The notes under the pieces are model-generated. The model saw only the letters and a list, made by a program, of their open reading frames with translations. It was not told the DNA's origin and made no database searches. DNA of 64,000 nucleotides from Persephonella sp. KM09-Lau-8 (GTDB lineage Bacteria > Aquificota > Aquificia > Aquificales > Hydrogenothermaceae), in contig NZ_JNLL01000001.1 of the NCBI RefSeq assembly GCF_000703085.1, positions 1,178,001 through 1,242,000 of the forward strand, given 5' to 3'. This document shows, one piece after another, positions 3,661-47,213 of this stretch (its first letter is position 1; each line of letters begins with the position of its first letter). Made by a program: the position numbers and the translations under genes.

Positions 3661-5667
3661 TTATCCTCCAAAGTATTTTCTCCTGTATTCTTCAAAGGTA
3701 TCTGTATTTTCCTTTTTATCAATACTTTTTTCCTGTTTTTCCTTTTTTTGTGTTTTTTTCATCAGTTCTTCGCTTAGTTTTTTATGTTCCTCTGTAATTC
3801 TTGCTAAATCTTCAGGGGTTTTGATTATATAAGGGGTAAGGAAGATAAATAAATTTGTTTTGTTCATATCCTCAGACCTGTATTTGAAAGCATTTCCAAT
3901 GATTGGAATGGAAGATAAAATGGGCACACCTTCCATTGTTTTGATTGTTTTTTTAGATACAAGTCCACCTAAGACTATTGTTTTTCCATTTGTTACTGTT
4001 ATTGTAGTATCAAGCTCTCTTTTTGATGTGATAGGAACCACATAGCTAAGCTCACCTATCTGTGGTTTTTCAAAGCCTATTACCTCATTAACTTCCTGAT
4101 GTATGTCCATTACTATATTATCATCTGATATGTGGGGAGTGACCTTCAGTATCAGGCCTACCTCTTTGTAGTCATAATTGATTATTGGATTCCCGTTAAC
4201 ATCAAATTTAACACTCTGGGCAAATGGTGTAACCTGAGAAACATTTATTGTTGCTTCTTTGTTATCCATTGTTAGCAGTTTTGGGGAAGAAACGATATTA
4301 AATCCTGTTCCTCTTTCAAGAAGTGAAAACAGGAATAATAAATCAGGGAAAAACAGGGTATTTCCTGCAATTTCTATATTTTTTCCTGAAGTGGTTAACA
4401 CCCCAGCAACAAAGTTTGAGGAACCAAGCAGGTTATAAAATCCTTCCTGAGATATTCCTCCTCTAAATGCTGCTCCTCCATGAGAACCAAATATCTGCCA
4501 TCTGACTCCTATCTCCTGCAGTGCTTTCTGGGATACTTCTGTTATTAGAGCTGTTACAAGAACCTGCCTTTTTTGCCTGTCTAATTTGCTTACTATCTCT
4601 TTTATGGCTCTAATTTCATTTTCATTTCCATAAACTATTAAAGAGTTTGAGGATTTATCTGCAACAACTTTGGGTTTTTCCTGTGAACTCTGGGAGTACC
4701 TGCTGATTGGAACTGTTTTTTTCTTCTTTCCTCCTTGCTTTGATTTATAAGAAATAAGCTGTATATTTTCAAGTAGTTTATTAATAACGTTTGCCACATC
4801 TTCTGCCTTGGAGTTTTTAAGATAAATCACATCAAATCTTCTACTGATTACATTTGAGGTCGGTTTGTCCAGCTGGGATATTATTGAGTTTATCTTATCA
4901 AAAGCATCTGCCGGTGCTTTTATCACAACAGCATTCTGGGATTTTATGTTATATACCCTTACCTGTATTCCCCTTTTTGCGTAATCTGAAAATAACGTAT
5001 TCAGGGCTGGTGCTACCTCTGAGGAATCTGCATACTGGAGTTTGTAAACTTTTATTTGTGTGTTCCCACCTGTTGTATCAATCATTGAGATAACTTTTTT
5101 CAGATTTTTCACATTTGCCTGTGTATCGGTAATAACCACAATATTGGCAGGATTGTATGTAAATATTAATCCCCGTGGAGATTTTAAACCTCTCAGGATA
5201 TTAGCTGCCTGCGTAACATCTGCATGTCTGAATTTATAAACATAGGTTATAAGGTCTTCTGAATCATCCGGTTTTGTTTTCAGAGGTGGTGTGTTATTTC
5301 TGTAGTATCCGGCAGATATGACTTCATAATAATTTCCTTTGTCTATAAGAATATAGTTTCTTGCTTTGAGAACAGAGGTATATATATTCCATGCTTCATC
5401 TATGGAAACAGGCTCAGGGAAAATTAAGGATACCTCTCCTTTAACATCTGTTCCAAGAACTATATTCCTTCCTGTTAATCCTGATATGAAATATGTAAGC
5501 AGTTTTAAGTCTATCTTTTCAAAATTAAAATAAACCTTATCTGTTTTTTTGAATTCTTCTGCCTGCTGGAGAATTTTTTGAAGATTACTTTCTGCTGCAG
5601 GCGTATTTCCATGGATAATAAGGAAAATTGCTATAAATATAGCTATTATCTTTTTACCTGATTTCAT
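3661..5667 (-). CDS. gspD: Type II secretion outer-membrane secretin GspD
   Basis: This secretin forms the outer-membrane channel. The 668-aa protein has an N-terminal signal peptide (hydrophobic to about residue 24), N0-N3 repeats over about 40-400, and a secretin domain over about 420-620 with VPITSKRELDTT and VTNGKTIVLGGLV. A charged, Lys/Glu-rich tail follows to residue 668 (S-domain-like, but no pilotin gene is evident here). A Ser/Lys-rich linker (KSKQGGKKKK) sits near residue 307, between N-domains. The start overlaps the end of gspC by 14 bp. Confidence 0.95.
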   Translation of the reverse strand: MKSGKKIIAIFIAIFLIIHGNTPAAESNLQKILQQAEEFKKTDKVYFNFEKIDLKLLTYFISGLTGRNIVLGTDVKGEVSLIFPEPVSIDEAWNIYTSVLKARNYILIDKGNYYEVISAGYYRNNTPPLKTKPDDSEDLITYVYKFRHADVTQAANILRGLKSPRGLIFTYNPANIVVITDTQANVKNLKKVISMIDTTGGNTQIKVYKLQYADSSEVAPALNTLFSDYAKRGIQVRVYNIKSQNAVVIKAPADAFDKINSIISQLDKPTSNVISRRFDVIYLKNSKAEDVANVINKLLENIQLISYKSKQGGKKKKTVPISRYSQSSQEKPKVVADKSSNSLIVYGNENEIRAIKEIVSKLDRQKRQVLVTALITEVSQKALQEIGVRWQIFGSHGGAAFRGGISQEGFYNLLGSSNFVAGVLTTSGKNIEIAGNTLFFPDLLFLFSLLERGTGFNIVSSPKLLTMDNKEATINVSQVTPFAQSVKFDVNGNPIINYDYKEVGLILKVTPHISDDNIVMDIHQEVNEVIGFEKPQIGELSYVVPITSKRELDTTITVTNGKTIVLGGLVSKKTIKTMEGVPILSSIPIIGNAFKYRSEDMNKTNLFIFLTPYIIKTPEDLARITEEHKKLSEELMKKTQKKEKQEKSIDKKENTDTFEEYRRKYFGG

Positions 5668-43767: not shown

Positions 43768-43793
43768 AAAAGAAAGCCCTCTTCCGAGGGCTT
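43766..43793 (-). terminator. Terminator of the hydrolase/lipoprotein operon
   Basis: AAGCCCTC / GAGGGCTT 8-bp stem with a 4-nt loop. On minus it is followed by TTCTTTTTT, so it ends the minus-strand operon; on plus there is no T run and it would be a weak stop for the MFS gene. Confidence 0.8.
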
Positions 43794-43799
43794 CCCAGA

Positions 43800-45242
43800 T
43801 TAATTACAGGATAAAGAAAATGTCCACCCCGTACCTGGAACTTCACCAACAACAATTACTACAACCTTATTTGCTAAAGGACTCATATCTCTATAAGTAT
43901 TAACTTTAAAATAAGAGTGTAAAGGTAAATTTTTTGTTCCCGCTCTTCTTCCTATTTTTATTTCTCTTACTTGTTCTTCACCTGGTGGGTGGCTTATACA
44001 TATTGAATCAGGAATACCATAGGGCTCAAATATGCTATGTAATGTTGTATTTTTAGGTAGTTCTGAGACATCTACAATTAGTGTAGTCACCTGATAAGCA
44101 CCACTTGCCTCTATAGTGGAATCACAGGTTAATTTCTCAAAACGTGGTGGGTCTATCTGTCTGCCTCCTATAGCTCTTGGGTCTATGCCACATATAGGAC
44201 ACTGGTCATTTAGAGCCAGTTTGTTAAATTCGTAGAATGGGTCTCCTGATGGTGCTCCTATAATATTTGTATACCACTCATTTATAGCTTCTTTAGTAAA
44301 TGTTTCTATGTTGCTTTTTACTATTTGTAAAAATGAGTTACCTACCGGATAATTCTGATTTAAATATACTTTGGTAAAATTATGAACAAGCCAATCACCT
44401 AATTCCGAACCACAATCATTACATCCAAGTTGAACATTGGGTTGTAAAATATTAATGCCTAAACCATTTTTCGCTGCAAAATTGACAAATTTTGCTATTA
44501 CTTTATCTTCTACTGCGGTGTAATAAGGAGACCTGTTATCTCCTAAAGCTGTTTTGGTAGCTGGTGTTGCAAGATGGATTACTCTTATTACTGCTGGAGG
44601 AGCACTGTTATCTGTAGGCTTTAGCCATCCCTTATCGCTGTATGCATTAACAAAAAAGTTTCCCTGTGAGTGTGATATAAAGATTATTGGATATCCTTTG
44701 TTTAGCCATCCTTGAATTTTTTGTTTATGTTCCTCATAATTTTGGGTTAATAAATCAGGTTGGCTCTGGTATATATCCGCAAGTTTTGATGCCATCCAGA
44801 TTCTAATAAGTTCTGCAATGGTTTTAGCTATAGGTGAACCACTTAAAGTATTCGTTGCTGCTCCCGATATTATCATATACCACAAAAATAAAGTTTTTCT
44901 GGCTTCTTCATAGGACATTCCAGCTTCCTGTGTAAGCTGGATATAAGCTTCTACTGAGTCTCTAACTATAGAGTGATGATAGTTATACAACAATTTCAAG
45001 TCATATCCTGAAAAATAGTTTTTCAGGAAAAAGTCTTTTAGTTTGTTTGTTTCATAAATTACAACTTTTTTTCTTAGTTTATTTAGATTACGTGATGCTT
45101 CAATCGGAGCTACCAACATACCATTAACATGAGCAACGACAACTTTTCTATCGGTGCACCATGGATATGAGGTGTTGGCATAAGTTTTTATAGGTATCAA
45201 GGCAAACAGCATAAAAAATATAGGAAAAATTATTTTTCTCAT
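43800..45242 (-). CDS. Secreted putative alpha/beta hydrolase with SHSQG nucleophile motif
   Basis: A 480-aa exported protein of unknown substrate. Residues 1-22 form a signal peptide (cleavage near YANTS). PIIFISHSQGNFFVNAY places Ser192 in an SHSQG nucleophile elbow; LATPATKT follows, and Asp246 (VEDKV) and His287 (LVHNF) could complete a triad. Several cysteines (CNDC, CPIC) suggest disulfides. The last 110 residues look like a separate beta-rich domain. It overlaps the next lipoprotein gene by 4 bp. It might be a substrate of the T2SS, which is an inference. Confidence 0.65.
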   Translation of the reverse strand: MRKIIFPIFFMLFALIPIKTYANTSYPWCTDRKVVVAHVNGMLVAPIEASRNLNKLRKKVVIYETNKLKDFFLKNYFSGYDLKLLYNYHHSIVRDSVEAYIQLTQEAGMSYEEARKTLFLWYMIISGAATNTLSGSPIAKTIAELIRIWMASKLADIYQSQPDLLTQNYEEHKQKIQGWLNKGYPIIFISHSQGNFFVNAYSDKGWLKPTDNSAPPAVIRVIHLATPATKTALGDNRSPYYTAVEDKVIAKFVNFAAKNGLGINILQPNVQLGCNDCGSELGDWLVHNFTKVYLNQNYPVGNSFLQIVKSNIETFTKEAINEWYTNIIGAPSGDPFYEFNKLALNDQCPICGIDPRAIGGRQIDPPRFEKLTCDSTIEASGAYQVTTLIVDVSELPKNTTLHSIFEPYGIPDSICISHPPGEEQVREIKIGRRAGTKNLPLHSYFKVNTYRDMSPLANKVVVIVVGEVPGTGWTFSLSCN

Positions 45243-46000
45243 TTTTGCCCCTCCCTTTCTTTTTTCATTCGTTCAATTAACTTGTAAAAATCAATTTTTG
45301 TTATATTTCCTGCTTTTTTCCATTCTTTTTTGATTCTCTCCATAAACTCGCAAGCTCCTATATCTGCCTGATTCAATTTTTCATCTATATCTGAACTTAC
45401 AGTTCCTGATAAAGTCTGACTGAATTTATCATAAAATTTTGCTCTTTCGTAAGTATTAAACGTTATAGCTTCTATATAGATATCATTATCTAATACTTCA
45501 TCTAAACCCTTATTGTATTCTTTTTCAGCATTTTTAATATTCAGAAAATCAGGATATTTAATTCCATACTTTTTTTCTAAATATGGAATTGCATATTTAT
45601 CATAAGCTTGTGTAGTGCATTCTGCTGAAACTTCTATTAACTTAAAAACATGTTTTACCTGTTCTCTATCTTTAGGATCAGCATCAAATATTCTTTGGGC
45701 TTGCCATGCTGATAAAATTAAAGCTCTATAAATGCCGGGTTTATCCTTGTATTTTTCCTTGAACTTTCTTTCAATTTCTTTCAGAACATCTTCTCGAATG
45801 CCGTCTACTTCCTTTCCTCTTAAACTTGTGCTGGTGTCAAGTTTTGGTAATTTACCTTCATCAATGAGTTTTTGGATTTCTTGATATGCTTCACTTGAAC
45901 CACCTGAAGAAGGTGAATTAGACCCTCCACTATCATCATTAATACAGGAACTAAACAACGGTAAAAAAATAGCCAAAAGCAATAAAAGTAATCTCTTCAT
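45239..46000 (-). CDS. Lipoprotein of unknown function, paralogue 1
   Basis: A 253-aa predicted lipoprotein: signal peptide with lipobox LFSSC (Cys19), a Ser/Gly-rich linker, then an alpha-rich domain. The block LDTSTSLRGKEVDGIRED ... PGIYRALILSAW and ITFNTYERAKFYDKF is nearly identical in the next gene upstream. It is coupled to the hydrolase gene by a 4-bp overlap. I do not recognise the family. A protective or chaperone role for the hydrolase is possible. Confidence 0.7.
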   Translation of the reverse strand: MKRLLLLLLAIFLPLFSSCINDDSGGSNSPSSGGSSEAYQEIQKLIDEGKLPKLDTSTSLRGKEVDGIREDVLKEIERKFKEKYKDKPGIYRALILSAWQAQRIFDADPKDREQVKHVFKLIEVSAECTTQAYDKYAIPYLEKKYGIKYPDFLNIKNAEKEYNKGLDEVLDNDIYIEAITFNTYERAKFYDKFSQTLSGTVSSDIDEKLNQADIGACEFMERIKKEWKKAGNITKIDFYKLIERMKKEREGQK

Positions 46001-46065
46001 TACACTCCCTCCCTATTAATTTATTATTAAGTGATAAATATATAAATTAAATTTGTATCTGTCAA

Positions 46066-46776
46066 CTATTTTTTAGTTTTTTCTCTTTTCATTCGTTCAA
46101 GGAGTTGATAAAAGTCTATTTTTGTGATGTTTCCAGTTTTTTCCCATTCTTTTTTGATTCTCTCCATGAATTCACATGCACCTATTCCGGCTCTATTTAA
46201 TCTATCATCTATATCTGAACTTACTGTTCCTGATAGTGACTGATTAAACTTATCGTAAAACTTTGCTCTTTCGTATGTATTAAATGTTATTGATTCTATA
46301 TAACGATTAGCATCATATATTTCATCTATCCCTTTATCATATTCAAGTTCAGCTTTCTGATCTTCATTAAGAACTCGTGGAAACTTAACTCCATATTTTT
46401 TCTCCAAATACGGAATCATATAGTCATCATAAGATTGAAAAACACACTCTGAAGCTATCTCAATTAATTTGGCAACATGTTTCGCCTGATTTCTATCAGT
46501 AGGGTCAATATCAAATATTCTTTGTGACTCCCATGCTGATAATATCAACGCCCTATAAATGCCTGGTTTGTCTTTATACTTTTCTTTGAACTTTCTTTCA
46601 ATTTCTTTCAGAATATCTTCACGGATACCATCTACTTCTTTCCCTCTTAAGCTTGTGCTGGTATCTAATCTGGGTAGTTTACCGTTAATTTGGGAACTTT
46701 TAGAATTTGAATTATCCTGACAAGAGAAAAATAAAAATTGAATTAATATGAAAAGCAGAAAGATATATTTCCCCAT
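46066..46776 (-). CDS. Lipoprotein of unknown function, paralogue 2
   Basis: A 236-aa predicted lipoprotein (lipobox LFFSC, Cys19), homologous along its whole length to the gene at 45239, with a shorter linker. The two share long identical stretches (around LRGKEVDGIRED, FKEKYKDKPGIYRAL, GACEFMERIKKEW), also clear at DNA level, showing a tandem duplication. It is the first gene of the three-gene unit, 65 bp before its paralogue. Function unknown. Confidence 0.7.
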   Translation of the reverse strand: MGKYIFLLFILIQFLFFSCQDNSNSKSSQINGKLPRLDTSTSLRGKEVDGIREDILKEIERKFKEKYKDKPGIYRALILSAWESQRIFDIDPTDRNQAKHVAKLIEIASECVFQSYDDYMIPYLEKKYGVKFPRVLNEDQKAELEYDKGIDEIYDANRYIESITFNTYERAKFYDKFNQSLSGTVSSDIDDRLNRAGIGACEFMERIKKEWEKTGNITKIDFYQLLERMKREKTKK

Positions 46777-46838: not shown

Positions 46839-47213
46839 CTACTTCACGTGGAGTTCACCATTGGTTGGGAAAACACCTGAACAGTAAGGACATGTAAATA
46901 TGAAATCCCCTGGATAAATCATCTTTACTTTTACTTCTTTTGTCTGGCCTTTACGTATATTCTTCACCATCACATCATAAGGAGGCAAGATATAAAAACA
47001 ATGACCGAAGCTCTGGCCGTATCCTGCAGGAATACCATCATCAAGGGCTGTAATACGGAATAGAACGACTTTTCCTCTGGGAACAGTGATTTCAGAAGGG
47101 GAATAACCATCTTTTGAAACTTTTATTTCAATGACCATATCAGGTTTTTCTTCTGTTTTTGTGCAGGAAAAAACAAAAAATAAACTAACCAGTAATAGAA
47201 GTAGCTTTTTCAT
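46839..47213 (-). CDS. Cupredoxin-like lipoprotein with CxxC
   Basis: A 124-aa exported protein: lipobox VFSC (Cys17), then a cupredoxin-type beta sandwich. VSKDGYSPSEITVPRGKVVLFRITALDDG, SFGHCFYILPPYD and GDFIFTCPYCSGVFPTNGELHVK show the plan, with His/Cys in GHC and CPYC as possible metal ligands. The usual His and Met after the last Cys of a blue copper site are missing, so this may be a CuA-like, copper-carrier or disulfide protein. It overlaps the preceding gene by 29 bp. Confidence 0.65.
   Translation of the reverse strand: MKKLLLLLVSLFFVFSCTKTEEKPDMVIEIKVSKDGYSPSEITVPRGKVVLFRITALDDGIPAGYGQSFGHCFYILPPYDVMVKNIRKGQTKEVKVKMIYPGDFIFTCPYCSGVFPTNGELHVK

Follow-up and report, generated by a model that had tools for sequence, protein, structure and literature searches.

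An exported hydrolase and its adjoining lipoproteins in Persephonella: a candidate two-gene system recurring from Aquificota to CPR bacteria

Several exported or secreted lipases are encoded next to a dedicated partner protein. For the lipase/foldase pairs LipA/Lif and LipA/LipH, an exported alpha/beta hydrolase and a membrane-anchored partner encoded alongside are described, with folding in the periplasm (PMC3352829, PMC13381987). CpaB and LipB, the T2SS membrane chaperones of Acinetobacter, are encoded by genes that adjoin those of their clients and carry an N-terminal membrane anchor; CpaB has a predicted SRPBCC domain (PMC4713064). In the case of Tle3/Tli3, a T6SS lipase effector lies beside a lipoprotein partner, and immunity can be conferred by a lipoprotein of the outer membrane (PMC9860674). 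Here, we analyze a hydrolase gene (H) and two lipoprotein genes (P_A and P_B, members of a family termed P) in the window, i.e., the whole 64,000-nucleotide stretch of Persephonella sp. KM09-Lau-8 DNA under study. An earlier note, made from this DNA alone, knew of no described system with this layout. Our search of the largely open-access literature on the motifs and on lipase/lipoprotein gene pairs yielded no description either.

Organization of the locus and features of the hydrolase

The three genes are transcribed from the minus strand in the order P_B, P_A, H (Table 1). The overlap between P_A and H, already reported in the earlier note, amounts to 4 bp, with the start of H located inside the stop of P_A (ATGA, 45239-45242). 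Over 250 aa, P_A and P_B share 67% identity, including the near-identical stretch GKLPxLDTSTSLRGKEVDGIRED. P_B shares 96% amino acid identity with the single P of the sister genome G001, which overlaps H in the same way as P_A does in the window. A cupredoxin-like lipoprotein (Cupredoxin_1, E 2.3e-14; window 46839-47213, minus strand) is encoded directly upstream of P_B and is kept in G001. The promoter- and terminator-like sites in Table 1 are hints only, as the total number of such sites in the window is not above that in shuffled sequence.

Table 1. Features of the hydrolase/lipoprotein locus, given as positions in the window.
Feature	Position	Strand	Description and basis
H	43800..45242	-	480 aa; signal peptide, catalytic domain and C-terminal domain; alpha/beta-hydrolase-like (ORF, family alignment, fusion model, PDB fold matches)
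P_A, lipoprotein partner	45239..46000	-	253 aa, lipobox FSSC (ORF, lipobox, P family profile, model)
P_B, second lipoprotein partner	46066..46776	-	236 aa, lipobox FFSC; orthologue of the single P in sister genome G001
Ser192 of H, predicted nucleophile in SHSQGN	44667..44669	-	invariant in 30 sequences
Asp246 of H, predicted acid	44505..44507	-	invariant in 30 sequences
His287 of H, predicted base	44382..44384	-	invariant in 30 sequences
Asn40-Gly41 motif of H, after the first strand	45120..45125	-	invariant in 30 sequences
C-terminal domain of H, residues 331-480	43803..44252	-	not in Pfam
Variable block of H, codons 45-70	45033..45110	-	three-way DNA alignment of window, G001 and G256
Promoter-like site TTGACA-17-TATATT in the P_B/P_A gap	46037..46065	-	11/12 matches; consensus match alone
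Terminator-like hairpin 3' of H, before a convergent MFS gene	43771..43796	-	consensus match alone

None of the three proteins matches a Pfam or NCBIfam family above the cut-off. The PADLOC models of anti-phage defence gave no match among the seven proteins searched, PDB sequence searches returned nothing credible and tblastn against phage genomes gave no matches. P_B does match phrog_12318 (E 3.7e-5), a phage family to which no function is assigned in PHROGs, and H has a marginal PHROG match. A match of P_B to Imm70 (E 0.034) fell below the cut-off and was set aside.

The exported hydrolase with a Ser192-Asp246-His287 triad that the earlier note proposed is borne out: a Sec signal peptide is predicted from the sequence of H, and the triad (S192, D246, H287) is invariant across 30 diverse H in the family alignment, together with N40, G41, Q193, G194, N195 and Y293. 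In a wider census of alignable sequences, the Ser is retained in 90/91, the Asp in 90/90 and the His in 88/88. In a model of a naturally occurring P-H fusion (L019, see below), Ser285 lies between strand 278-284 and helix 287-298, which corresponds to a strand-turn-helix elbow. When the fold of this model was searched against the PDB, the top matches were mostly alpha/beta hydrolases (probability up to 0.98, E about 0.01-0.1), all of them distant, with a best E of about 0.01 and a query-normalised TM of at most 0.32 among the matches listed. A viral DUF676-like fold was matched with an E of 3e-4 and a probability of 1.00. At the level of sequence families, a few H members weakly match Abhydrolase_6 or DUF676; four families are hit in total, each by one of the 30 members. 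As judged from sequence and model, H is a remote member of the alpha/beta-hydrolase superfamily, and it is probably a serine hydrolase with an ester or lipid substrate (esterase or lipase). The nucleophile elbow, the Ser-Asp-His order and the fold are common to H and the superfamily (DUF676, Abhydrolase_6, DDHD and PlaB-like folds), whereas the SQGN motif and the early NG motif are specific to the H family. Asn40-Gly41 could possibly provide the oxyanion-hole loop. The C-terminal domain occurs in G001 and in the own-phylum genomes G256, G320 and G324, and is missing from the short H of sister genera. At CPR loci (L043, L050, L068 and others), H-family hydrolases reach 700-1350 aa and in some cases contain Ig-like or LVIVD repeat domains; REP-associated transposase-like genes are found near several of these loci.

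Pairing of the hydrolase and its partner across genomes

A single pattern scan of about 85,000 species genomes recovered at least 232 confirmed relatives of H, and the best 80 of these 232 were read; a viral contig adds one. Despite this number of relatives, the core of neither H nor P is represented in Pfam or NCBIfam. The relatives are found in Pseudomonadota, Patescibacteria, Nitrospirota, Planctomycetes, Bacteroidetes and others, and also on plasmids of Deinococcus, Aeromonas and others, while the complete pair is present on plasmids of Comamonas, Cupriavidus and Paraburkholderia. On the viral contig (IMG/VR, L094, 4454-6257), both genes are present and the hydrolase carries a lipobox.

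Using profiles built from the P and H alignments, P was detected at all H loci read (81/81), preceding H in 68, following it in 11 and sharing one ORF with it in two. P thus lies beside H on the same strand in 79/81 loci, is fused to it in the other two and never occupies the opposite strand. In 72/79 unfused pairs, both genes overlap or are separated by at most 60 bp. While these 81 loci were picked by H, the counts in the own phylum and in a Comamonas-centred family were made without that choice. Among 136 genomes of the own phylum, the nine with H are also the nine with P. Among 151 genomes of the Comamonas-centred family, seven carry H, always adjoining P, and nine carry P; of the two surplus P, one is situated at most 0.2 kb from the end of its contig and the other matches weakly. 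The 40 genomes reached through the loci contain one P beside a degraded H and two clear orphan P, located in Acinetobacter pollinis near an integrase-like gene (L155, 2107-2679) and in Lautropia dentalis right after IS21-type transposition genes (L156, 2363-3016). As the genomes are related, none of these pairing counts represents independent events. P homologues are thus not regularly found away from the hydrolase, and the refuting observation named in the earlier note was not made. Across the loci, no other gene (T6SS or VgrG/adaptor genes included) is widely recurrent near the pair, save chromosomal context in CPR.

The form of the pair varies. Four genomes from other genera of the same family encode a short H (about 270 aa) with a lipobox, preceded by a small exported P. 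The fusion L019 is a single lipoprotein, P followed by H, with no internal signal peptide. L083 and L159 were considered as clean fusions as well, but parts of P or H are missing and these may be deletions; L019 alone was used. Homologues of both proteins recur side by side across phyla, which agrees with the dedicated hydrolase/lipoprotein pair of the earlier note and makes the pairing far broader than a reader of the sequence alone could see. At the sequence level, these data support a widespread, dedicated two-gene system that would extend from Aquificota to CPR.

The partner, the predicted complex and the history of the locus

From CPR to Pseudomonadota, P is characterized by a DxDxNGxRDD-like loop and two cysteines. 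The loop is the best-conserved part of the protein and is acidic with an EF-hand-like spacing, but degraded forms occur in L006 and L008, and the window proteins have a shortened version (EVDGIRED). P is under purifying selection (omega 0.13-0.23). AlphaFold predicts P_A alone as a helical domain (pLDDT 93.7) that has no match among PDB folds (best E 0.93; no foldase among 49 hits), and on this model P appears to have a fold that no solved structure shares. A simple pattern test classes about half of the P proteins as lipoproteins; those of CPR have an N-terminal transmembrane-like helix, and the others carry a plain signal peptide. At nearly every locus, H bears either a signal peptide or a lipobox. 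The lipobox is on the hydrolase rather than on P in four sister-family genomes and one viral contig, and Desulfuromonadales-like loci usually lack one on either protein. Such switching of the lipobox between partners is expected where one anchor serves a complex. In G324 (C14, 76266-76787; L185), a second P copy with four stop codons adjoins an intact P-H pair.

The fusion L019 was modeled with AlphaFold as P plus the catalytic domain, based on 53 alignment rows from which plasmid-record sequences were left out; 15 of these rows were paired by reading adjacent P and H genes across the stop codon. The model has a mean pLDDT of 87.4 and a pTM of 0.87. P consists of helices and a single short strand; the linker is poorly ordered. 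If the domains were placed at random, a pTM nearer to the fraction of the larger domain (246/396 residues) would be expected; the pTM, though an indirect indicator, therefore probably reflects a confidently predicted packing. P is predicted to pack on the catalytic domain of H, and a lasting H-P complex is the best-supported reading.

According to the earlier note, the lipoprotein gene is duplicated next door. An adjoining paralogue is indeed present, but a recent tandem duplication is ruled out by the synonymous divergence: dS is about 1.55 between P_A and P_B, 0.47 between P_A and the P of G256, to which P_A is closer, and 0.11 between P_B and the P of G001. G256 belongs to another family of the order and is a fragmented assembly, in which H is frameshifted and was not mended. 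In a DNA alignment of the window, G001 and G256, all three agree almost completely in H codons 1-44 and 71-95, while the window resembles G256 in codons 45-70 and G001 is very different there, with sharp edges. Over codons 46-72, amino acid identity is 52% and omega reaches 0.91, compared to 0.04-0.11 in the flanking parts. One form of the block is common to the P_A-type genomes and another occurs in the P_B-only genome. From its divergence, P_A looks imported, and the comparison of these three genomes suggests that P was exchanged together with a matching H block while P_B was retained. Contrasts resembling this block are seen in L082/L086 and L024/L032. A scan of 219 locus pairs for co-divergence of H segments with P did not single out codons 45-70 and does not support them as a family-wide specificity determinant; in the three genomes compared, the H block may still determine partner specificity.

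Possible roles of the partner and comparison with known systems

We favour, with moderate confidence, P as a dedicated membrane-anchored folding, holding or tethering partner of H. H, the putative esterase or lipase, would be exported by Sec. P would be exported too, usually lipid-anchored or, in CPR, held by an N-terminal transmembrane helix. Its helical domain would pack against the catalytic domain of H, bring H to its active state and retain H on the membrane or the surface. In an analogous way, lipase foldases and T2SS membrane chaperones serve their clients, with folds unrelated to that of P. In the window, a P_A-type partner and a matching early H segment would have been added to a resident P_B-H pair or have taken the place of part of it, leaving P_B behind. 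This folding or holding role is favoured because of the near-obligate pairing, the natural fusion and the long-term conservation of P. The retention of its motif and cysteines from CPR to Pseudomonadota suggests that P keeps one function instead of taking part in an arms race.

Some features fit immunity better. Tandem copies of P occur in the window and in L029, L042, L064, L157, L160 and L164 (49-75% identical where measured), tandem H was not seen at any of the loci examined, and the two orphan P lie near integrase-like or IS21-type genes. H would then be an antibacterial envelope hydrolase (e.g., a phospholipase) that the lipid-anchored P blocks in the producer, and P_B would be an older, retained immunity gene. 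Lipoprotein immunity to lipase toxins is known (Tle3/Tli3, PMC9860674), and the two sharply different H-block alleles track the type of P in the three genomes. Yet, H carries a Sec signal peptide of its own and conserved delivery genes are missing from its surroundings; an immunity protein fused to its toxin, as in L019, would keep that toxin permanently blocked; the same P motif is kept across phyla and P is almost never found without H. We consider immunity the less likely role but a serious alternative. Somewhat less likely still is its extension to a cross-phylum system in which the exported hydrolase attacks the envelopes of other cells, the new-fold, lipid-anchored helical P gives cognate protection, an exchangeable H block sets the partner match and superseded partners such as P_B are kept. 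The idea of a paired system is supported, with a folding partner the likelier and an immunity protein the less likely form of it.

The earlier note also pointed to a T2SS, and the window does encode the secretin GspD (3793-5529, minus strand; TIGR02517, 454 bits). P could be a T2SS-specific membrane chaperone of the CpaB/LipB class, needed for secretion of H across the outer membrane, as its gene adjoins that of H, its anchor is N-terminal as in LipB/CpaB (PMC4713064) and GspD is above the cut-off in 43/48 module-carrying genomes. However, the own-phylum background is already 74/92 genomes at least 90% complete, GspD was not found in three CPR genomes carrying the module, and P has neither an SRPBCC or Lif fold nor a family match. 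Given the CPR carriers and the commonness of GspD in the phylum, a T2SS role is possible in diderms and not general, and a special link of the pair to the T2SS is not supported; as an account of P, the chaperone reading is improbable. A regulatory or substrate-handling subunit, e.g., calcium-dependent through the DxDxNGxRDD loop and no chaperone, is of similarly low probability: this EF-hand-like acidic loop is the best-conserved part of P, but its degraded and shortened forms indicate that metal binding is not general. Linkage alone can maintain operons, but that H and P are mere neighbours is barely credible: the pairing spans phyla in unrelated neighbourhoods, both gene orders and a fusion, and the counts in the own phylum and the Comamonas-centred family refute it.

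H and P thus offer a compact and testable case of an enzyme and its partner, for which the Aquificota loci supply natural variants (P_A, P_B and two H-block alleles) for partner-specificity tests. Like the lipases of LipA/Lif and LipA/LipH, H is an exported alpha/beta hydrolase with a dedicated, usually membrane-anchored partner encoded next to it. In contrast to these pairs, P is usually a lipoprotein, the lipase models miss H, the pair extends to CPR bacteria, and neither the window P nor its relatives match a foldase family model in Pfam or NCBIfam. As for CpaB/LipB, the P gene adjoins that of its putative client and the membrane anchor is N-terminal; unlike CpaB, P is all-helical in the models and the module exists in genomes in which GspD was not found. 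The arrangement of a lipase-like H beside a lipoprotein P also resembles Tle3/Tli3, whereas H is equipped with a Sec signal peptide and lacks conserved secretion-system neighbours, it is always the same two families that pair, and a fusion exists. Since P fails the sequence and fold tests for foldases and the module lacks T6SS features, we do not file it under foldases, CpaA/CpaB or Tle/Tli; H itself belongs to the alpha/beta-hydrolase superfamily.
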